Below are positions 2,561-57,200 of a stretch of 64,000 nt of DNA, one piece after another. Where the stretch lies: assembly GCA_016287245.1 (NCBI GenBank), contig JAEEWG010000003.1, positions 62,001 to 126,000 on the forward strand, read 5' to 3'. The notes under the pieces are model-generated. The model made no database searches, was not told the origin of the DNA, and saw nothing but the letters and a program-made list of their open reading frames with translations. The stretch's first letter is position 1, and each line of letters opens with the position of its first letter. This stretch comes from Clostridia bacterium (lineage in GTDB: Bacteria > Bacillota > Clostridia > Saccharofermentanales > Saccharofermentanaceae). The translations under genes and the position numbers were made by a program.

Positions 2561-5311
2561 TTAGTTCTTCTTATCTTCCTTATCCTTTTCGCGAAGGAGC
2601 AGTCCGAAAGTTCCGGGGCCGCAGTTTACGGCGATGGCCGGAGATGCCTGCTGGAAGTAAACTTCGTCAAACTTGACCTTTCTGTTGATCTGCTCGCGGA
2701 TCCAGTCGAGATCTTTCTTGCTGATCCCTACATACGTGACAAAAAGCATCCTCGTATCGATCGGCTTATCGTTGCTAAGGCAGGTGTTGATATAGCTCTT
2801 CCACGCTCTCTTTCTCGAACCGAAATAGAGCATGCCGAGACCCATCTTTCCTTTCTTTAAGACGAGGACCGGTCTTCCCATGAGCGAGTTGACGAGATTA
2901 GCGATCCCTTTTCCGACCTGCTTGGCACGGGCCAGGAAGTCGAGATTGTCCACGATGAAGCTGGTATGTACTTTCTTCTTCAGTTTCTCGATACGGGCGA
3001 GGATCTCCTCCGGACTCTTTCCGGCTTCCGCCATACGGCAGGCTTCGATCGCCAGAAGTCCCTGACCGCTCGATAGATGACCGGTGTCGAAAACGAATAC
3101 GCTATCGAAGGATTTCGCCGCTTCCAGCGCAACCGGATAACCACTGTTCTCTACCTTACCGGAGATAGAAATATGAATGATGTTATTGGCTATAGATAAT
3201 TGTTTTGCGAAGAATTCCTCGACTTCTTTTACCGTAGGCGCGGTCGGCATCATCGTACTTTCGCTGTTCTCCATATACTTTAAGACGCCTCGGGTATCGA
3301 TCTCTTTTCCGTCCTTGAAAATACCCTCTGATGTACTTACTTTATGCGGGAGCACGGCGATACCGTACTTGGTGATGATATCCTGCGGAAGGTCAGCGAC
3401 ACTTTCCGTGGTGATGATGACTCTCTTTCTCTTTCTGTCACCATGCATCCAGGAGATCGTCTCTTCTGCGATCTCGGTGCGGTTGCCGGTAATGTGTACG
3501 ATCTCCTTCGGAAGGAGGCGATAGAGTTCATTTTCCAGATCATTTCCGCTTACAGGCTTGACGAGATAACCGTCGAAATTCTCTCTCATATAGAGCGCAC
3601 GGTTCTGTTCATCTGCGTTGGCGGTCAGGATCACGATCGAAGATTCACGCGAACGTCCGCCGGTCTGGTCGATGATCTTGTTTTTGCACTCGATACCATC
3701 CATCTCCGGCATCAGGTGGTCCATGAAGATCACATCGTACTTGATGTTCAGTGTCTTTCTCAGTGCTTCGGATCCGCTTAATGCCGTATCGATACGCACC
3801 TTCGTTCCGCGAAGGAGCTTCTGGACGACCATGAGGTTCGCTTCGTTATCATCGACGACGAGGACTCTGGCCTGCGGAGCTTCAAATCTCGGCAGATAAT
3901 CCTTATGCGTCGCCAGGCTCTTGGTCTTGTCAAAATCGTACTGACCCATCTTGGTCTGCGTCTCGACGATCTGCGGGATCTCGATGATGAAGGTACTGCC
4001 CTTGGTGTAGATACTGTTGACCGTCACTTTACCGCCCATGAGATCGACGAGCTGCTTGACGATCGAAAGGCCGAGGCCCGTTCCTTCGATATGCTTGTTG
4101 GTATCTTCATCGACACGTTTGAATGCCGAGAAAAGATACGGGATATCTTCCGGCTTGATGCCCACGCCGGTATCCGTTACGTTGTAGATCATATTGACGG
4201 TGTTTTCGTCGATCATCTCACTTTGTACGGAAAGCGATACGGAGCCTTCCTTCGTATATTTGATCGCGTTATTTAATACATTGATCAGGATCTGTTTGAT
4301 ACGCACCTCATCACCGACCACATCGTTCGGGATATCCGGAGAGACATCGACATGGAATTCGAGTTTCTTCTCCTTGGCACGGATCCACATCATGCCGACG
4401 AGGTCCGAGAGCATCTCACCCGTCTGATACGGTGCGTCGAGAAGCTGCATGCGTCCGGACTGGATCTTCGACATATCGAGGATATCGTTGATCAGGTTCA
4501 GAAGGAGCTTACCTGCCGACTTGATGTTGGCGGCATCCTCCATAACTTCTTCGCTGACATCTTCACGAAGGATCATCTCATTTAATCCGATGATCGTGTT
4601 GATCGGGGTACGGATCTCATGGCTCATGTTCGAAAAGAAACTGTTCTGGGCCTTGTTGAGGATCTCGATCTCGTGGTGCTGACGGATCTCGGTAACGATC
4701 TCCTTATGCAGGCAGTATTTGGTATAGAGCATGACAAGGCCCATCGCCAGCTGGAATACGGAGAATATGATGAAGTTCAGAAATTCATTCTTCTCCAGGA
4801 TCGCCCGCTCCGCGTAAGCGTAATAGACCATCGAGATCATGATACTGTCAGCCATGACCGCCATGAAAAGATATTCCATCGGATTGAGATAAAGGCAGAT
4901 CGGCACCAGAAGCGATACCGTCATGAAGAGCGTCGTATCCATGAAGTTATTGAACCGGAGATTGACGAAGCTAAGACCCAGTACAAACAGGTACATGACG
5001 ATGGCCAGTCCCGTATAGGCAAACGATATGATCCTGTAGCGGTGTTCTGACCCTTTGGCCATCTGCATCGTCACCAGATACCACAGGCTTCCGGACAGAA
5101 GGATCACCAGATACAGTGCCCGGTGATAAGGGAGGCTGTTCATAAAAAGCTTCGGCTCGATAAATGAATATACGAAGAATCCCATTCCAAACAGTACGAC
5201 AAAGAGCACCATGTAGTTGGTCGTTCTCAAAAGTCCGTCATAGATCGAATGGATCGTAGTCTTATCGTGTTTGGAAGGACGGAATAAATAGTCCAGAAGA
5301 TTCTTGATCAT
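2561..5311 (-). CDS. Hybrid histidine kinase with receiver and C-terminal DegV domain
   Basis: 916 residues. Order: about six membrane helices (residues 30-200), HisKA with SHEIRTP (His231), HATPase_c (N box VLNNAIKYTKEG, G1 DTGVGI, G2 GTGLGLS, to about 450), receiver (480-600, phosphoacceptor Asp531 in MDHLMPEMDG, Lys585), then from about residue 629 to the end a complete DegV/FakB-like fatty-acid-binding domain (ITTESVADLP, TSTAPT-like MMPTAPT, SISGKVENSG, VNCGPGTFG). The two neighbouring kinases have HPt domains where this one has DegV. Its start overlaps the end of the upstream gene by 4 bp, so it is the last gene of an operon. Inference: phosphorylation is coupled to binding of a lipid or fatty acid. 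No stop or frameshift separates the halves. Confidence 0.9.
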   Translation of the reverse strand: MIKNLLDYLFRPSKHDKTTIHSIYDGLLRTTNYMVLFVVLFGMGFFVYSFIEPKLFMNSLPYHRALYLVILLSGSLWYLVTMQMAKGSEHRYRIISFAYTGLAIVMYLFVLGLSFVNLRFNNFMDTTLFMTVSLLVPICLYLNPMEYLFMAVMADSIMISMVYYAYAERAILEKNEFLNFIIFSVFQLAMGLVMLYTKYCLHKEIVTEIRQHHEIEILNKAQNSFFSNMSHEIRTPINTIIGLNEMILREDVSEEVMEDAANIKSAGKLLLNLINDILDMSKIQSGRMQLLDAPYQTGEMLSDLVGMMWIRAKEKKLEFHVDVSPDIPNDVVGDEVRIKQILINVLNNAIKYTKEGSVSLSVQSEMIDENTVNMIYNVTDTGVGIKPEDIPYLFSAFKRVDEDTNKHIEGTGLGLSIVKQLVDLMGGKVTVNSIYTKGSTFIIEIPQIVETQTKMGQYDFDKTKSLATHKDYLPRFEAPQARVLVVDDNEANLMVVQKLLRGTKVRIDTALSGSEALRKTLNIKYDVIFMDHLMPEMDGIECKNKIIDQTGGRSRESSIVILTANADEQNRALYMRENFDGYLVKPVSGNDLENELYRLLPKEIVHITGNRTEIAEETISWMHGDRKRKRVIITTESVADLPQDIITKYGIAVLPHKVSTSEGIFKDGKEIDTRGVLKYMENSESTMMPTAPTVKEVEEFFAKQLSIANNIIHISISGKVENSGYPVALEAAKSFDSVFVFDTGHLSSGQGLLAIEACRMAEAGKSPEEILARIEKLKKKVHTSFIVDNLDFLARAKQVGKGIANLVNSLMGRPVLVLKKGKMGLGMLYFGSRKRAWKSYINTCLSNDKPIDTRMLFVTYVGISKKDLDWIREQINRKVKFDEVYFQQASPAIAVNCGPGTFGLLLREKDKEDKKN

Positions 5312-23046: not shown

Positions 23047-23087
23047 AGGAGTTGGTTTATGTGTTTCCCAGCTCCTGTGTTTTTTTG
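23047..23087. terminator. Bidirectional terminator
   Basis: CAGGAG (23046-23051) pairs with CTCCTG (23072-23077), with GTTGG/CCAGC extending the stem, and T-runs on both strands (23080-23086 and the A-run 23039-23044). It would stop transcripts leaving the AT-rich island on the minus strand. Confidence 0.6.
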
Positions 23088-23208
23088 CTCAAACGAAATG
23101 AAAACGCTAAAAGGTAAATCTTCGGCACGCTGGTCCTCGACGCTTTGCGTCTGCGGAGGCGTACCTCACGATTTCCTTTTAGCGTTTTTCTTTGAGCAAA
23201 AACAGGAG
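23072..23208 (-). repeat. Palindromic element copy A (left of AT-rich island)
   Basis: Long imperfect inverted repeat: arms 23072-23120 and 23170-23208 pair almost fully (CTCCTG, TTTGCTCAAA, AAAACGCTAAAAGG, AAATC blocks). The 23121-23169 centre, read on the minus strand, carries TCCGCAG, a hairpin GACGC-AAA-GCGTC and CGAGGACCAGCG, shared with copies at 27324-27423 and 51139-51246. The arms are not shared with the other copies. It lies just after the stop of the 23225 gene. Confidence 0.8.
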
Positions 23209-23224: not shown

Positions 23225-23977
23225 TTATCCTAGAAATAAGAAGAGTGCTAACAATAGTACTAAAGAGATCGACGCCAGACAAATCATTCCAAGCTTACGT
23301 CTCAAACTGTGCAAAAGAATTGAAATACAAGTCATTGTAAACAGTATTGCAATAAAGGTAATGTAAAGTATTGTCTTAACAGGGAAATGATCTATCACTC
23401 TCCACTCTTCATCGATATTCGTTTTTGATGAAGGTAACGGTGGAAGATAAGATTTGAAAGCAATGCTCCCCTCATATCTGCCTTCCACTGCAACACTAAA
23501 CTCTTTGGGCAGAAAAGCAGAGCTTTCACTGTCTCCGGCCACACTAAAGACTTCTATAGGGATATCTTCTATACAAATTCTCAAATTTTCGGCTGGAACT
23601 ACTCCCGCACAATAATCAGACAAAAGCGTGCAAAGCTCAGTATCACTCAAAACATGATGGTCATTCTTAAATGTATCTTGTATCTCTGTTTGATCAAAAG
23701 ACACATACGCTTGACACCGCTGCTCAAAGAACACCATTTTATCTTCGCGCTTGACTACATATTCTTCACGAATGATTTCCCAAGACAACTGTTTGGAATC
23801 GATAACATGCACACCTATCAGCGGGGCTGAAAGCTCGACCCTTATATCAGGATACATATATTCTCGCTTTACCTCAGGCACTACAAATACGCAGGTCATC
23901 ATCAATAACCAAACTATCCCTAAGCATATTGAGAAAACATATACCGATTTAAATTGCTTTTTCTTATTATCACTCAT
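23225..23977 (-). CDS. Two-TM membrane protein of unknown function, AT-rich island
   Basis: About 250 residues from ATG 23977 (MSDNKKKQFKSV), 2 nt after the stop of the giant gene upstream, so translation is probably coupled. One TM near the N terminus (about 15-35), an extracellular domain of about 150 residues with three cysteines (RCQAY, LCTLL, RICIED), and two TM helices at the end (about 190-250). I recognise no family. Base composition is visibly more AT-rich than the genes on either side. It may anchor, process or export the large secreted protein. It ends next to palindrome copy A, after a G9-10 run at about 23214-23222. Confidence 0.7.
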   Translation of the reverse strand: MSDNKKKQFKSVYVFSICLGIVWLLMMTCVFVVPEVKREYMYPDIRVELSAPLIGVHVIDSKQLSWEIIREEYVVKREDKMVFFEQRCQAYVSFDQTEIQDTFKNDHHVLSDTELCTLLSDYCAGVVPAENLRICIEDIPIEVFSVAGDSESSAFLPKEFSVAVEGRYEGSIAFKSYLPPLPSSKTNIDEEWRVIDHFPVKTILYITFIAILFTMTCISILLHSLRRKLGMICLASISLVLLLALFLFLG

Positions 23978-23979
23978 TT

Positions 23980-26900
23980 TCAGTACTCTAACGGAGCAAA
24001 CCATTTGCCAATAATCCCAACATTTTCAATCGATACCGTGTTCTGCTCCGATTTATAAACAACGTATCTTCCTCTCACCGAATAATTATGTCCATACAAA
24101 TATTTGGTCTCATCTGTCCATGCATACACATTTTTAACTTTCTTCTTCCTAGCAAACTCAAGCGCTACACATGTCTCTCGATTTAACGAATGGCTAAATT
24201 GCATATCCCCACACGAACATGCTTGAATATCTAGCAATTCGATATTGCATGCTGGATAAATGCTGTTAACAATATACGAAAGATCAACTTGACCGTCTCC
24301 ATTTGGCGAAAACTCAAGAATATCATAGTTTCCATGCGCTATTATAATCATTTTATCTACAGAAGAGTACTTCTGTTTATTGGTTAGCGTATCAGCTCCA
24401 AGATCACATTTAAGAGCAGCAAAAGTGTAATAAACCATTTCGCGAGTAGAAATCTCAAGTCCCAATCTTTGTTTTATTTTCTGATAATATTCAGACCCTT
24501 CATAAATATCTAACACTATGACTTTCTCTTTGCATTTCTTAAATGCTTTTATGTATGGATTTCTAAGAGTCTCTAATGGATCCTCACCTTCTTTATCCTT
24601 TCCTATCAGAATGTAATTTATCGACTCGTTCTTCTTTTTCGGTGTTGCGTCTGAATCATCTAATGCACCATCTTTATCAGTATCCTCATCTTTCGGATTA
24701 GACTTTACCCCGTATATTGTCCATTTCCCTTTTCCAAATTGAGAGAAAGTCGAAGCAATATACATTTCGATTGAAAGAGGATCATTAACGTCTGTTATAT
24801 CTATTCCATTTAAGTATACTCGTTCATCACTATCTACTTCAATTTGTCGACAGATTCCCATTTCGGCTGCATCTGTCAAGTGATCATAATCTGAATCATC
24901 TGTTCGGGGATTCGAATAATAAAGATGTCCATTGGAACTCAGCATTCCCACTTCTTCGTAGATATCCCAAAGACCGTCTCCCGGTTCATCATCGGTAACG
25001 TTCACATCAAGATCCAGACCTTGTCTTTTGGCATATAGTGAGGAAAACTCATCGTATACCTCTTCTGCAGTTTTCCCCTCGCAATCGATAACACCCCCAC
25101 CGGAAGCAGTTTTCAACCATTTAAGCGAGACAGTTTCACTATCTCCGCTTGACAAAGTGAAGATATACGCTATCATCTCTGTCTTGCTTCGGTGATTTGA
25201 ACTATAGAAAAAGGAACGAATATCTGTAGAATTATGGAAAGCGATAACTACCATCTCGTTATTGGAATCCAGATCACGCGAAGTAGAAGCAATATTAAAT
25301 ATTTCAAGCGCATCAAGCCCTGTACCAAGCAGATCTGGGGTAGTAAAACTATATCCAACCCAACTATCGGTTTCGTTCCAAGGCCATTCAATCACCTGTT
25401 GTTTCAGGAGATCTTTATCGGTTGTATAATTGTAAACATAACTTCCCCCAGTATTATACCCACGTACAACCATTCGGTCACCCGACTGCATATTATCGAT
25501 TATTTTACAAGCAATAACATTCATCTCAGAGATATCTGTTTCTGTCATTGTGTTTACACACGGAATTTCAAGAACATAGTCTATTCCTGAATACCCCTCG
25601 TGAGATGGTCGAAGTTCACCTGAATACTTCATACTAGTCCAAAAATAATGCCAAATCGACATATCAACTACCATGTATTCACTAAAATGTGTTATGGAAC
25701 AAGAAACCGTATGTTTTTCCTCATCCACATCGGCTTCACAATCAATATACAACCCACTTTCTTCATCAAAATACAGTATTCCTAGAGACCGAGGATTTGT
25801 TTTATATCCCTTCTCAACAGGAAGATTGTCTGGGATAATCGCATTTGTTGAAGCTAATTCTATTTCATCGTAATAAAATGTCAGAATTGCACTGTCAAAA
25901 TCGCCATCGTATGAAATTTCTATAGGGGAGCCAACAAGGCCAACAAGCTCACTTGAATATATGTCTCTCCCATACATATTCTCTATAGACATATCCGAGT
26001 CCAAACAGCCTGTTCCATTGAGAGTTACTTCAACCTTATTGACCGCGGTTCGCTCTGAATCCGTAATCTCTTCTTCTCTCGTTTGAAGAAATCTCTCTTC
26101 TCCATCAGGAATACCATCAGCGTCACTATCAGGGAGCAACGGATTCGCGCCGATCTTTATTTCGTCGCCATCTTCGATTCCATCTCCATCCGTATCTTCA
26201 TTAAGTAAATCTGTTCCATACACATATATTTCATCGCCATCAGAAATACCATCCACATCGGTATCATCTGTCCAAGGGTATGATCCGAGGGATATTTCTT
26301 CACTAACTGTCAAGCCATCATTATCATCATCTTCTTGACTATCGAACACGCCATCTCCGTCAGAATCTTCAGAAAGAGGATCTAGACCCAACATCACTTC
26401 CTCGCCATCATTAATCCCATCTCCATCACTATCAGGAGACCGGGGATCCGTTCCAAGCTCTGATTCTATGTCATCGGGAATTCTGTCTCCATCAGAATCA
26501 AGTTCAGGATCTTGTATCAGTCCATTTATAAAATCGACATAGTCGTCAATCCCATTAAGATCCTTGTCTTCGTTTAAATGATACGCGCAAGTCATTGAGA
26601 AGAGAGACACATTTTCCAACGACATGCCACTGTCACCATAATTACAGTGTCCATTAATTGTCAAATTGATACTAGAATAAGATGGAATATTTTGATTAGT
26701 CCCATTGTTCGAAATCATATATTGATCCTTACAAAAAGAAATCTCGGCTCCAGCCACTTCTTCTATAGATCGTTTACAAGAAAAAGAAATCTGCCAATCC
26801 TCAATCGTTTGAGCGGATTTATTCGTTATATTGATTGCCCCATTATATCCAACTCCCCATTTCGAGTATTGTTGAAATGAGATATCGTAACAAGAGTGAT

Positions 26901-27105
26901 CAACAATCTTCTGTTTAGTGTTAAGAAGATAAAATGTCGGAAGATCGGCTATCGCTTCTTTCGTCATTGAAGACACAGTCATTCCAAATCGGATCGTTTC
27001 ACTAGGTGAAATATCCTGATTCCATCCAACATTTTTTATCGTGCAAACGCCAGCAGCAGTTTCATACACCTGAGCTCCCCAAATCCCTTCTATTATATAT
27101 GGCAA
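23980..27105 (-). CDS. Giant secreted CBM2-like / TSP3 / VWA-like / caspase-like protein
   Basis: 1041 residues in the open frame from TTG 27105. Residues 1-170: two modules resembling cellulose-binding CBM2 (VGWNQDISPSETIRFGM; INITNKSAQTIEDWQISFS). 178-345: about seven calcium-binding thrombospondin type 3 repeats (DSDGDGI-x-DGEE). 350-480: beta-sandwich. 505-690: VWA-like fold with no MIDAS motif (VLEIPCVN replaces DxSxS). 700-820: further TSP3-like repeats. 830-1041: domain with IIAHG (His924) and LDIQACSCG (Cys963), placed as in clan CD (caspase/CHAT) peptidases. A signal peptide exists upstream in another frame (27093-27215), so a frameshift seems to have detached it. Function unknown: perhaps a surface adhesin or peptidase. 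Confidence 0.75.
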   Translation of the reverse strand: MPYIIEGIWGAQVYETAAGVCTIKNVGWNQDISPSETIRFGMTVSSMTKEAIADLPTFYLLNTKQKIVDHSCYDISFQQYSKWGVGYNGAINITNKSAQTIEDWQISFSCKRSIEEVAGAEISFCKDQYMISNNGTNQNIPSYSSINLTINGHCNYGDSGMSLENVSLFSMTCAYHLNEDKDLNGIDDYVDFINGLIQDPELDSDGDRIPDDIESELGTDPRSPDSDGDGINDGEEVMLGLDPLSEDSDGDGVFDSQEDDDNDGLTVSEEISLGSYPWTDDTDVDGISDGDEIYVYGTDLLNEDTDGDGIEDGDEIKIGANPLLPDSDADGIPDGEERFLQTREEEITDSERTAVNKVEVTLNGTGCLDSDMSIENMYGRDIYSSELVGLVGSPIEISYDGDFDSAILTFYYDEIELASTNAIIPDNLPVEKGYKTNPRSLGILYFDEESGLYIDCEADVDEEKHTVSCSITHFSEYMVVDMSIWHYFWTSMKYSGELRPSHEGYSGIDYVLEIPCVNTMTETDISEMNVIACKIIDNMQSGDRMVVRGYNTGGSYVYNYTTDKDLLKQQVIEWPWNETDSWVGYSFTTPDLLGTGLDALEIFNIASTSRDLDSNNEMVVIAFHNSTDIRSFFYSSNHRSKTEMIAYIFTLSSGDSETVSLKWLKTASGGGVIDCEGKTAEEVYDEFSSLYAKRQGLDLDVNVTDDEPGDGLWDIYEEVGMLSSNGHLYYSNPRTDDSDYDHLTDAAEMGICRQIEVDSDERVYLNGIDITDVNDPLSIEMYIASTFSQFGKGKWTIYGVKSNPKDEDTDKDGALDDSDATPKKKNESINYILIGKDKEGEDPLETLRNPYIKAFKKCKEKVIVLDIYEGSEYYQKIKQRLGLEISTREMVYYTFAALKCDLGADTLTNKQKYSSVDKMIIIAHGNYDILEFSPNGDGQVDLSYIVNSIYPACNIELLDIQACSCGDMQFSHSLNRETCVALEFARKKKVKNVYAWTDETKYLYGHNYSVRGRYVVYKSEQNTVSIENVGIIGKWFAPLEY

Positions 27106-27215
27106 ATCAAATGTAAAGAATTCTCCATCGCATTAAGATCGCAGGGAAAACCAAAGAAGAGAATAATTAAAGACAGGACAAAACAAAAGCCTCTCTTGCA
27201 ACGATCAGCAGACAT
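27093..27215 (-). pseudogene. Detached signal-peptide leader of the giant island protein
   Basis: ATG 27215 has a good ribosome site (AGGAG, 6-nt spacing) and encodes a 40-residue peptide: basic MSADRCKRG, hydrophobic FCFVLSLIILFFGFP, cleavage-like DLNA. The frame then closes at TAA 27095-27093. The giant protein is open in the -1 frame from about 27135 on (DGEFFTFDLPY). One missing base near 27128-27131 would join the two precisely after the cleavage site. It reads as a 5' frameshift, a sequencing error, or less likely a programmed shift. Confidence 0.65.
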
Positions 27216-27323: not shown

Positions 27324-27423
27324 TTGTAAACAAAAAAACGCCGATGTGTTCCTCAAGGAGCGATTCCGCAGGCTTGTCCGAGGACCAGCGACGGAGGAAC
27401 AGTATCGGCGTTTTTTGTTTAAC
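27324..27423 (+). repeat. Palindromic element copy B (right of AT-rich island)
   Basis: Arms 27324-27354 and 27394-27423 pair (GTAAACAAAAAA, ACGCCGAT, TGTTCCTC). The centre holds GGAGCGATTCCGCAGGCT, then TGT, then CCGAGGACCAGCGACGG, identical to copy C apart from the 3-5 nt between the blocks. It begins 11 nt beyond the HIT gene stop and so could also terminate it (T-run on each strand). Confidence 0.8.
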
Positions 27424-51138: not shown

Positions 51139-51246
51139 TCAATAAAAAAGAAATGGACGTATAAGAAATCCCCCGGAGCGATTCCGCAGGCTGAAAGCCG
51201 AGGACCAGCGACGGGGGATTTACTTATACGTCTATTGTTTGATTAT
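51139..51246 (+). repeat. Palindromic element copy C
   Basis: Arms of about 35 nt (AATAAAAAAGAAATGGACGT, ATAAGAAATCCCC at left; GGGGATTTACTTATACGTCT, ATTGTTTGATT at right) pair. The centre has GGAGCGATTCCGCAGGCT, GAAAG, CCGAGGACCAGCGACGG, matching copy B. It lies between two converging genes (50600 product and serA) and could end both transcripts. Confidence 0.8.
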
Positions 51247-51256
51247 TCGGAGCGTC

Positions 51257-52861
51257 TCAGAAGAAGAGCTGTGTTACGCGGAGCACGCCATCGATCGCAC
51301 GAAGCTCTGTGAGCACATCCTCACCGAGTTCTTCGCTGACACCAAGGAAGGACTGAGCCTTATTGGAATTCGGCTTCACGCCCCAGTGCATGCTGTTGAT
51401 GTTGATGTTGGCATCGCCGATCTTGGTTGCGATCTTACCGATGATGCCCGGCTTATCTTCGTTCTGCATAGCGATCACGATCGGAGCCAGAGCGAAGTCT
51501 GCCTGATAACCGAAGAAGCTTACGAGAACTTCTGTGTCGTCACCGACGATCGTACCGGAAACAGAAAGCTCGCGGCCTTCTTCCGTTACGAAGTTAACAA
51601 CGATCATGCTGCCGTAACGCTCGCACTGTGCGCTCTTGCTCTCAACAACTTCGATGCCGTGAGACTCAACGCCCTGACGAACGTTAACGAAGCTTACGCG
51701 TCCGTCGGAATGAGCGGAGAGGAAACCCTTCAGAACAGAGAGTGTCAGGATACCTGTTTCCTGCTCAGCGAGAGCGCCTCTGAATTCGACCTCGATCTTC
51801 TTGACCGGAGCTTCTTCTGCCTGATAGTAGATCTTACCGAGCTTCTCAGCAAGGTCGGCATACGGACGGATGGCCGCCATATCGCCGCTGAAGGAAGGCA
51901 TGTTGATCGCAGCAACGAGCTCGCCGCGAAGTGCTTTTGCAACGAGAGATGTAACTGCGGAACCTACGTTGTGGTTAGCTTCCTGAGTAGATGCACCGAG
52001 GTGAGGTGTAACTACGCAGTTCGGAAGTGTAAGGAGCGGGTTCTCATAGTGCTGCTCGCCCGGAGCCTTATCGTAGGACGGCTCCTTATCGAATACGTCG
52101 ATCGCTGCGGCAGCAACCTGACCGGACTTGAGAGCTTCATAGAGAGCCGCCTCATTTACGAGACCACCGCGGGCTGCGTTTACGATACGGACGCCCTTCT
52201 TGCACTTGGCAAGCTCGTCAGCGCCGACCATGCCGACGGTCTCCTTGTTCTTCGGAGTGTGGAATGTGATGAGGTCAGCTACAGCGAGGAGATCCTCGAG
52301 CTTCGCGCAGCGCTTAACGCCTACTGTGTCGAACTTCTCCTGTGTGATATACGGGTCGTAAGCAACGACTGTCATACCGATACCCTTGAGCTTTCTGGCT
52401 ACGATGGAACCGATACGGCCGAGACCGATGATACCTGCGGTCTTGCCCTCGAGCTCGTTACCGATCATCTGGGCACGGCGGAAATCGTCGTTATGAGCTG
52501 CCTCGTTCGCGTGGCAGAGATTTCTGAAAATGGAGAATGCATGAGCAACAGCAAGCTCACCGGCTGCCATGATGTTGGCTTCCGGAGTGTTGACTGCGAT
52601 GATGCCCTTCTCTGTGCAGGCGGCAACGTCGATGTTGTCGATACCGTTGCCGGCACGGCCGACGACCTTGAGGTTCTTCGCGTTCTCGAGGAGGTCCTTG
52701 TTGACCTGTGTTACGGAACGTACGATGAGCGCATCGTAATCACCAATGAAACCCTTGATCTCGTCCTGGGAGCAACCTAATCTCTCGTCTACTTCAAAAC
52801 CTTCGTCCTTCAGATACTGGATTGCATCTGCAGCGATCTTTTCTGCAACTAAAATCTTCAT
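51257..52861 (-). CDS. serA: D-3-phosphoglycerate dehydrogenase
   Basis: 534 residues, long type with a substrate-binding/ASB domain and a C-terminal ACT domain. NAD motif GLGRIGSIVARKLKGIGM, catalytic RIVNAARGGLVNE (Arg), ... TPHLGASTQEA (His). The ACT domain (EDKPGIIGKIATKIGDANININSM) may sense serine. Oxidises 3-phosphoglycerate in the first serine-biosynthesis step. It is 19 nt downstream of the class V aminotransferase gene, same operon. Confidence 0.97.
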   Translation of the reverse strand: MKILVAEKIAADAIQYLKDEGFEVDERLGCSQDEIKGFIGDYDALIVRSVTQVNKDLLENAKNLKVVGRAGNGIDNIDVAACTEKGIIAVNTPEANIMAAGELAVAHAFSIFRNLCHANEAAHNDDFRRAQMIGNELEGKTAGIIGLGRIGSIVARKLKGIGMTVVAYDPYITQEKFDTVGVKRCAKLEDLLAVADLITFHTPKNKETVGMVGADELAKCKKGVRIVNAARGGLVNEAALYEALKSGQVAAAAIDVFDKEPSYDKAPGEQHYENPLLTLPNCVVTPHLGASTQEANHNVGSAVTSLVAKALRGELVAAINMPSFSGDMAAIRPYADLAEKLGKIYYQAEEAPVKKIEVEFRGALAEQETGILTLSVLKGFLSAHSDGRVSFVNVRQGVESHGIEVVESKSAQCERYGSMIVVNFVTEEGRELSVSGTIVGDDTEVLVSFFGYQADFALAPIVIAMQNEDKPGIIGKIATKIGDANININSMHWGVKPNSNKAQSFLGVSEELGEDVLTELRAIDGVLRVTQLFF

Positions 52862-54245: not shown

Positions 54246-57200
54246 TCATGTTGTGGTCTTCTTCGGAAGCATGTCCGGCGGCGGGAGCAGGATCTGGTCT
54301 CCGGCCTTTGGTGTGTAGGAGGAATCCTTGCTGTTGTATGTAAGGATCGTCGTTACACAGGCGTCGGTCTCGGAATCGATCTTGATGCCGTATACGTGGT
54401 AGAAGAGATCCCACCATGTGCGGCAGCCGCTCTTGTCGGAGAAGGTATATACACCGATCGGAGCATCCGGTGCCGGTGCTGTAGTTTCAGTCGTCGGCGG
54501 TACGGTGGTCTCTGTCACAGACGGATCGGAAGGATCGCCGGAAACATCTGTGACCGCCGTATCGGAAACTGTTGTTTCCGGGCTCTTCTTATCACTGCCG
54601 CAGGACTTCGCGATGAGCACGATGATGATGATCAGGCAGATCAGGGAGACCGCTGCCAGAACGAACGGCAGGTAGCTTACGCCCGGCTCGTCATCGCCAT
54701 TATCGAATCCATCATCGATGGTATCCATCTTACGTCTTGCCGGCTGGGTATTCGGACGGTTGCCCGGACGTGTCGCCTGCTGCGGACGTCTCGGAACACC
54801 CGGAACAGCACCCGGACGGACTGTCTCGCCCTGCTGCATGTATGCCGGTACAGAAGATACCTGCGGCTGCGGATCCGGAGCGATCGGACCTGTGCTGAAA
54901 TCAAACAGGTCAGCAACAGCCGGCGGCGGGTTATCAAAATCGTACTGCGGCTCAGCGGCCACCTGCTCAGGCTGGCCATATGCTGTATCGTATGCGTAAT
55001 CAGCCGGGACCGGCGGGATCTCCTGCGTCGGTTCATCGTAGCTCGACTGCATATCCACACCACCGAAGGAAGGCTGATCCATGTTTACAAACGGAGATAC
55101 CGGAGCCGGAGCCGGGGCCGGTACAACGTACGGAGAAGCAGAAGGTGCTGCCTCATCTTCATCTACTGTGTAGGAACCGCGGGCATATACGCCTGTATCT
55201 TCGTAACCTACCGGAGTATCGCTGTTGGTCGGATACGTCGGCGGTACATATGTCGGAGCCTCATAAAGGGGCATCTGCGGTACATCGTCTGCGGATGCGG
55301 TCGCATTGGCAGGAGCGTCATTCGAAGCGAACGGGATCACGAACTCATCGGAACCGGTGGCCGCCTCTTCGGGCTGGCCGGCGCCTCCTTCTGCCGGAGC
55401 GTTTTCTGCATCACCGAAGAAAAGCGGTGTCTCGTCGAATTCTTTTGGATCATTGGAATACTCGGGCTCATCATTCATAGGCGTTTTCACCTCACTGTCC
55501 GCTTCGAAAACAAGCGGGGCGTCCTCGTCTGTTTCCGCAACAGATGCCGAAGCTGCGCCGGAAGGTGCCGCTGCGGATACCTGTTCAGTTCCTGCCAAGT
55601 TCTCCTTTTCGGCCGGTGCCGCCGGTGCGGCTGTGCCGAAGACCTCATCACCAATATAGAGCGGTGCGCCGCCGGAAACCGGGGCCGGAGCCGCTTCCAC
55701 TACTCCTTCTACTTCCTTCGCGGCAGCTGCTGCCTTCGGGATGATCTCCTCAGGGATCACCGTACCTGCAACAGGCGCCTTCGGGACGATCTCTTCCGGG
55801 ATCGGCTTGCTCTGTGCCTGAAGAGCCGCTTTCGCAAACGGATTATCTGCATTCTTTACAGCTACGAACGGTTCGTCCTTCTTCTCAGGAACGGCCGGGG
55901 CCGGTGCAGGCTGGACGAACGGGCTGACCGGAGCTGCCGGAGATTCTGCCTTCACAGCACTTTCTGTCTTCGCATCGAGTTCTGCAGCGGCCTTATCAAA
56001 GCTGTTGACGAAAGGCACGACCTTCGTCTCCTCGAGATTCTCGGGTTCTTTCTTCTCTCCGCCCTCTTCCTTCATCAGATCAGAGATATCACCGAAGGAA
56101 AGCGGCGGTTCCGGTACCGGAGTATTGATCGCGGCATCGACGGCGGCATCAGCTGCGGACTTGGCAGCGGTAGATGCGGCTGTCTCTGCGCCCAGGGAAG
56201 CGATCGCGGCCGCGGCACTGCCTGCCGCCGGAACGACCATAGTGGTCTCGAGCGGCTTCGGTGTGGATGCCTTCGGAAGATCATCGCCAAACAGCATGGC
56301 ATCCTTCGGGAGCGGTTCTTCTTCCTTCTCCGGAGATTCCAGCGGGACCTGCGGAGCTACATTGTAATCATCATCGTAATCCTCTTCGACGACCTTCTTC
56401 TTCTTTCTGCCGAAACCGAAGAATCCGCCTCTGTCGCTGGAGGTGATGTCTTCTACGAAGGAGATCATGAACTGCAGCGGGACGCCCGGAAGCTTCGCTG
56501 CGGCTTCTGTGATAACGACGCTGGCGGCATCGCTCTGATCCTCGGCATCGTAGAGGATGCGGAGGAGCTCCTGCTGACCTAAAGCCTCATAGACTTCGCG
56601 GTTGCAGAGGATGATGCAGTCATCGAGTTTCAGCTGGGCGATGTTCGAGCAAAGCGCCGGAGCTGTCTTCGTGGCACAGAAGTTATAGAAATTCTCCACC
56701 TTCTGGCGGGCGGTGTTGATCGCATCGATGCGGATATCAGTCGCCGTCATCGGGTAAAGTGTGTCATCACGATAGAGGAAGGCCAGACCTTTTCCGATGG
56801 TGGAAGCAAACGCCTCACCGTCCTTGACCATAACGCCGGCAAAGAAAGGCGCACGGCTGTTATCCTGCTGGATCTTCATCTTCCCTGTGATGGAAACGGC
56901 GGTATTTACCATCTCTCCGATGGAATCATCAAGAGAGCGTCTTCCGGTCTTCAGTTCCGTGCCGAGACGGCGGAGGATCGGCTCATACGGCGGCAGGGCG
57001 TTGGGGTCCTGATCCGCGATGGTCTGGTGGGAAAATACGGAGAAGAAGAATCCACGGTCTTCTTTATCGTTCGTAAGATCTGCCGAACGGGCTACGGTCT
57101 TGCTGGTCACACGACCATCCATATAGAATGCGTCAGTCAATTCTGCTGTAGGAAAATATCTTGCCGTCAGAGTGGTTGCAAGCCGAGTCTGCTTTGCCAT
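54246..57200 (-). CDS. Bitopic protein: PP2C-like cytoplasmic domain, disordered linker, TM, LysM-like end
   Basis: 984 residues. Residues 1-265 follow a PP2C phosphatase-like fold (FFAGVMVKDGEAFASTIGKGLAFLYRDDTLYPMT; LDDCIILCNREVYEALGQQELLRIL; SDAASVVITEAA) but the acidic metal residues of true PP2C (DG, DN pairs) are mostly gone. About 290-830 is a Pro/Ala/Glu-rich low-complexity linker with SFGD- and FGDA-like repeats. TM at about 843-866, a Ser/Thr-rich stem, and a LysM-like end at about 914-975 (TWWDLFYHVYGIKI ... YTPKAGDQILLPP). Inference: it connects a cytoplasmic pseudophosphatase to peptidoglycan. AGGAACTGAG before the ATG is weak. Confidence 0.72.
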   Translation of the reverse strand: MAKQTRLATTLTARYFPTAELTDAFYMDGRVTSKTVARSADLTNDKEDRGFFFSVFSHQTIADQDPNALPPYEPILRRLGTELKTGRRSLDDSIGEMVNTAVSITGKMKIQQDNSRAPFFAGVMVKDGEAFASTIGKGLAFLYRDDTLYPMTATDIRIDAINTARQKVENFYNFCATKTAPALCSNIAQLKLDDCIILCNREVYEALGQQELLRILYDAEDQSDAASVVITEAAAKLPGVPLQFMISFVEDITSSDRGGFFGFGRKKKKVVEEDYDDDYNVAPQVPLESPEKEEEPLPKDAMLFGDDLPKASTPKPLETTMVVPAAGSAAAAIASLGAETAASTAAKSAADAAVDAAINTPVPEPPLSFGDISDLMKEEGGEKKEPENLEETKVVPFVNSFDKAAAELDAKTESAVKAESPAAPVSPFVQPAPAPAVPEKKDEPFVAVKNADNPFAKAALQAQSKPIPEEIVPKAPVAGTVIPEEIIPKAAAAAKEVEGVVEAAPAPVSGGAPLYIGDEVFGTAAPAAPAEKENLAGTEQVSAAAPSGAASASVAETDEDAPLVFEADSEVKTPMNDEPEYSNDPKEFDETPLFFGDAENAPAEGGAGQPEEAATGSDEFVIPFASNDAPANATASADDVPQMPLYEAPTYVPPTYPTNSDTPVGYEDTGVYARGSYTVDEDEAAPSASPYVVPAPAPAPVSPFVNMDQPSFGGVDMQSSYDEPTQEIPPVPADYAYDTAYGQPEQVAAEPQYDFDNPPPAVADLFDFSTGPIAPDPQPQVSSVPAYMQQGETVRPGAVPGVPRRPQQATRPGNRPNTQPARRKMDTIDDGFDNGDDEPGVSYLPFVLAAVSLICLIIIIVLIAKSCGSDKKSPETTVSDTAVTDVSGDPSDPSVTETTVPPTTETTAPAPDAPIGVYTFSDKSGCRTWWDLFYHVYGIKIDSETDACVTTILTYNSKDSSYTPKAGDQILLPPPDMLPKKTTT

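Follow-up and report, generated by a model that had tools for sequence, protein, structure and literature searches.

The two genes at positions 23,225 to 27,105 of the window, the whole 64,000-nucleotide stretch of Clostridia DNA analysed here, are likely to form one locus (WIN) of a family of Sec-exported polymorphic toxins and immunity proteins, in which a clan-CD-like peptidase would serve as a warhead acting outside the membrane; the window copy is a probably disarmed member. The initial annotation had proposed an undescribed surface peptidase, toxin or contact system. Among these, comparative evidence favors a toxin with cognate immunity, whereas a working surface protein is improbable for this copy because its export signal is out of frame. 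Comparison with relative loci (L-numbers) and genomes (G-numbers) adds that the C-terminal domain, or tip, is one of many that are swapped, that the partner is tip-specific, and that the 5′ end of the toxin gene is damaged. Both open reading frames lie on the minus strand exactly where they had been placed, and the locus divides into the following parts:

23980..27105, minus strand: toxin-like ORF, 1041 aa, TTG start, without an in-frame signal peptide
27093..27215, minus strand: ORF of a remnant signal peptide (MSADRCKRGFCFVLSLIILFFGFPCDLNAMEN...), out of frame with the toxin and with a stop at its end; matches residues 1-24 of intact paralogues
26962..27105, minus strand: C-terminal half only of the first CBM2 module, by comparison with intact paralogues
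26638..26883, minus strand: second CBM2 module, residues 75-156 (Pfam CBM_2)
26086..26568, minus strand: TSP3 / DxDxDG repeats for calcium binding, arrayed over residues ~180-340 (Pfam TSP3_bac and motif count)
25006..25653, minus strand: VWA-like domain that lacks MIDAS, spanning residues 485-700 (hhalign Prob 93 with E=2.8e-7)
24661..25005, minus strand: second TSP3-like segment, residues ~701-815, ahead of the swap junction
23983..24651, minus strand: variable C-terminal domain, putative caspase/clan-CD-like peptidase, residues 819-1041
24334..24336, minus strand: codon of His924, predicted catalytic, H-G at a strand end, invariant 28/28
24217..24219, minus strand: codon of Cys963, predicted nucleophile, in QACSCG, invariant 28/28
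23225..24004, minus strand: cognate partner in the membrane, 259 aa (250 aa from the ATG at 23977), a predicted immunity protein

The modular composition read earlier from the sequence is borne out in each of its parts. The seven calcium-binding repeats are recovered with the strict motif [DE]x[DN]x[DN]Gxx[D] at residues 180, 225, 247, 281, 304, 326 and 808, accompanied by looser motifs at residues 203 and 737 and by a Pfam match to TSP3_bac (E=5e-11); in NCBIfam the ORF matches only CglD/MtsD, and these matches reflect the TSP3 repeats and fall far under the cut-offs. The carbohydrate-binding-like modules correspond to CBM_2 in two stretches (Pfam, E=6.9e-12), the first of which is a C-terminal half only. 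Alignment to real VWA domains supports the VWA-like fold, and since the columns of the MIDAS motif DxSGS read PCVNT, its description as lacking MIDAS is correct. The positions given for His924 and Cys963 are exact, and both residues are invariant in all 28 related C-termini at a median pairwise identity of 22%, much more than chance would give, the Gly following His being nearly so, as would be expected for a conserved, catalytic-looking dyad. The partner has the three helices attributed to it (predicted at ~23-41, 213-231 and 234-252), arranged as one N-terminal helix, a predicted extracytoplasmic domain and two C-terminal helices. Its likelier start is the ATG at 23977 (MSDNKKK), two bases past the toxin stop, while the ATG at 24004 would give a 25-base overlap. 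The partner has no match in Pfam or NCBIfam, libraries that may not include models for Imm36 and Imm57, and searches of Pfam, NCBIfam, PHROGs and PADLOC with tip or partner returned nothing meaningful. The two genes do co-occur: at least four genomes, drawn from two genera, have homologous pairs side by side, and in one further genome the partner adjoins a toxin fragment.

Intact members of the family share a constant order of signal peptide, two CBM2 modules, TSP3 stalk with MIDAS-less VWA-like domain, second TSP3 segment and C-terminal tip, and most full-length relatives have an N-terminal hydrophobic signal segment (L077, L078 and L083 have none in the called ORF). The WIN-type tip occurs in 34 of the 115 genomes searched from the bacterial family, in two genera, and a survey of the whole order (34/188 genomes) found none outside this one family. 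At least four stalk loci are present in the genome of the window itself. Searching viral contigs with the stalk alignment yielded no relative, and GTDB contigs yielded only TSP3-level matches. The tips carried on the shared stalk are caspase-like (the commonest, with many subtypes), papain/C39-like (L043/L044, by motif and a weak Pfam match), DUF4474 (L058, E=1.9e-9) and REase-like (L056/L060). The last are assigned by motif only, VD...ESK...Q, which is the E/D/ExK/Q pattern given for Tox-REase families (PMC3482391). At L050 and L056 a stalk variant was also observed in which no VWA domain was detected and a domain of the C-type lectin kind is present (Pfam Lectin_C, best E 2.5e-15).

Tips have been swapped between stalks. 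WIN and L045 are 61% identical over 847 aa of stalk and their tips have no detectable similarity; L083 and L087 agree at 75% in the stalk and 27% in the tip. Conversely, the WIN tip shares 42-44% identity with tips found in the other genus. In the stalk tree WIN is sister to L045, and in the tip tree it groups with the other-genus tips (98% SH-aLRT). Forcing the tips onto the stalk tree is rejected (AU p=5e-6), as is forcing the stalks onto the tip tree (AU p=1.6e-59).

The partners follow the tips. Most relatives carry their own partner gene downstream, and 30 of the 31 similarities between partners link loci of the same tip type; shuffling gave a mean of 3.7, and none of 20,000 shuffles reached 30. 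Within the same tip clade L046, L076 and L080 nevertheless have unrelated partners; for that of L046, a comparison as a divergent relative of the WIN partner was suggestive only (hhalign Prob 21). No partner was found at L053, L059 and L085, among others. Partners that accompany peptidase tips bear either a membrane helix or a signal peptide (at L007 it is the longer ORF that includes it), and those of DUF4474 and C39-like tips are lipoprotein-like. The partners of the two REase-like tips are soluble, with neither membrane helix nor signal peptide, and only these two toxins have a very strong hydrophobic segment ahead of the tip. This pattern, read from simple hydropathy, fits peptidase tips that would act outside the membrane and REase-like tips that would act inside the cell. 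Separately, the toxin or its fragment is followed by two partner-like genes in tandem at L083, L088 and L092, an arrangement resembling poly-immunity arrays.

Partners also outlive toxins. In the sister species G009 most of the toxin is gone at two sites, the orthologues of WIN and of L006, as read from a draft assembly. At the WIN orthologue, residues 107-1013 are deleted in frame and the partner is 100% identical to that of the window. Together the two G009 partners show no nonsynonymous and five synonymous changes, too few for a formal test of selection. Loci L092, L093, L094 and L118 are truncated cassettes, each a truncated tip with an intact partner, and genomes with such tips include G017, G009 and G002; L093 is a deletion remnant and not a donor. 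In G103 the partner adjoins a fragment of the toxin. Partners stand alone at loci such as L113, L115 and L116; genomes with solitary homologues of the partner are G068, G119 and G105, to which G034, G001 and G126 add copies at contig ends. More divergent solitary relatives of the WIN partner (L119, L120 at 4152-4931, L121 and L122; E 4.5e-14 to 6e-9) include one on contig C45 of the genome that contains the window.

The likeness of the tip to clan CD peptidases is distant. No tip match to Peptidase_C14, CHAT or DUF4347 lies above the curated Pfam cut-off. A profile search of the PDB returned a DUF4347 protein (9qpe_G) first, at E=0.01, with the HG, the C and the following VYA motif aligned. 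When all tips were compared with C14 members (hhalign), the score was 27.5 and the H and the C of the two sets fell in the same columns; controls gave at most 13.9 for shuffled and 10.9 for reversed sequences, and C14 against C11, an accepted clan-CD pair, scored 25.1 in the same set-up. Tip subtype B alone against C14 gave Prob 66 and P 5.5e-5, and type A tips alone gave no profile signal against C14 or C11. Because the VWA slice also reached 22.6 against C14, the tip score is support and no proof. References for DUF4347 and CHAT, sought across the phylum, had too few members for a profile, and a single-sequence AlphaFold model of residues 819-1041 was unusable (pLDDT 33) and was discarded. 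From these comparisons, which are supportive and not decisive, we infer a caspase fold for the last domain of WIN.

A mechanism consistent with these observations begins with export of the intact members, presumably by Sec, and tethering of the toxin by its CBM2 modules to glycans of cell surfaces or of the fibre matrix. The calcium-rigid stalk would then hold the warhead out to neighboring cells, a form of contact delivery, and the clan-CD-like peptidase (His924/Cys963 in WIN) would cut a protein on the outer face of the neighbor's membrane, with a presumably toxic outcome. On the surface of the producer, the helix-anchored extracytoplasmic domain of the tip-specific immunity protein would block the matching peptidase and so protect the cell. 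More generally, and with something short of even confidence, we suggest that these are a new, lineage-restricted class of Sec-exported, glycan-tethered, calcium-stalked toxins whose main warheads, caspase-like peptidases, may strike membrane-exposed targets from outside without translocation, immunity being provided by a membrane ectodomain or a lipoprotein, and that entry into the cytoplasm would be the way of a rarer variant, which has an REase-like tip, an added hydrophobic segment ahead of it and a soluble partner.

Whether the window copy itself still takes part in such a mechanism depends on how its 5′ end is read. The signal peptide (27215..27093) is out of frame with the toxin ORF and ~50 residues of the first CBM2 module are absent, similarity to intact relatives picking up again in the frame of the large ORF after this gap; intact g1 relatives with a WIN-type stalk all extend ~80-90 residues further at the N-terminus. 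The frame break is unlikely to stem from a sequencing or assembly error, since the sister genome G009 has the identical sequence. As its signal peptide is in the wrong frame and its first CBM2 module is reduced to a half, WIN is most likely a disarmed toxin whose immunity gene has been kept. A working gene, with its signal peptide linked to the body through a frameshift or with a product that is not exported and acts within the cell, would fit the 1041 codons that still read through, a surprise in a gene long dead, as well as the intact His/Cys dyad and the same 5′ arrangement in two species. It is unlikely all the same, as residues of the first CBM2 module are missing on top of the change of frame and the copy in the sister species has lost nearly the entire body. 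The longest ORFs at L077, L078 and L083 likewise have no signal peptide in frame, and there may thus be more toxins in decay.

Two other readings concern the family as a whole. An exported caspase-like enzyme could cleave the membrane protein encoded with it, which would be its substrate or receptor in kin recognition or surface sensing, with both genes swapped together; cognate partners with ectodomains, translational coupling and co-swapping suit such a protease-substrate pair equally well. The persistence of partners alone while toxins decay at two sites argues against signaling of this kind, and the soluble partners of REase-like tips and the lipoprotein-like partners of DUF4474 and C39-like tips are not predicted by a common scheme for it, which leaves it distinctly unlikely. 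Secreted degradative proteins often have CBM2 and TSP3 modules, and protease inhibitor genes frequently adjoin protease genes, features that would suit a secreted, calcium-stabilized, glycan-bound protease with a nutritional or host-directed role and a partner acting as export chaperone or inhibitor. However, such a role would hardly account for unrelated enzyme classes, REase-like ones included, as tips on one stalk, or for the existence of solitary partners, and we regard it as very unlikely.

The preferred reading, a toxin with cognate immunity, places the family beside the polymorphic toxin systems described by Zhang et al. 2012 (PMC3482391), which it resembles in its constant N-terminal region for export and presentation, exchanged C-termini, small tip-specific linked gene, truncated cassettes and solitary immunity-like genes. 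Their defining features were found here wherever they could be examined, donor cassettes not being clearly seen; the partner gene is adjacent and specific to the toxin type, and its immunity role is predicted. In contrast, the CBM2/TSP3/VWA-like stalk is absent from the text of that paper and was not found in the literature searched, which suggests a new variant of polymorphic toxin. The MafB-N and Microscilla-N stalks (PMC3482391) likewise are Sec-exported, lineage-restricted constant N-termini bearing polymorphic tips, but they comprise other domains, and the caspase-like tips here are limited to two genera of one family. Tox-Caspase domains, for which a toxin function was predicted from their extreme C-terminal position (PMC3482391), share that position and the His and Cys with the present tips. 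The latter differ in having no Pfam match and in having membrane proteins or lipoproteins as partners, which are not assigned to Imm36 or Imm57. DUF4347 (PF14252), the domain of the best PDB profile match of the tips, occurs in PA0256, a putative T6SS antibacterial effector (PMC8262886); here the difference lies in the modest E-value and in the delivery of PA0256 by T6SS. With the clan CD peptidases C14 and C11 the tips share H-G followed by C in the same order and spacing, whereas their similarity to them is under family level. The family would extend the polymorphic toxins by a stalk of new architecture and by several toxin-partner families not seen before, from a lineage outside the usual models. 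Its many natural pairs of predicted caspase-like enzymes and inhibitors offer material on peptidase toxins that may kill from outside the membrane, and the two orthologous sites provide a snapshot of toxin decay with immunity retained.

Several other elements were also observed. Long hairpins with variable outer stems and a conserved apex (CGCTGGTCCTCG - small hairpin - CTGCGGAATCGC) have no Rfam match, and ~7 of 10 exact genome matches to the 12-mer have the hairpin form. Two of the hairpins flank the toxin locus. Their positions are:

23082-23202, 27326-27423 and 51140-51260: hairpins in the window, the copy at 23082-23202 only a partial match
C9:23546, C9:47370, C12:29609 and C22:22862: hairpins elsewhere in the genome

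An ORF of 984 aa at 54246-57200 (minus strand) has no Pfam match at E <= 0.001. At 2561-5311, also on the minus strand, the window encodes a hybrid histidine kinase (HisKA, HATPase and receiver) fused to a DegV lipid-binding domain.
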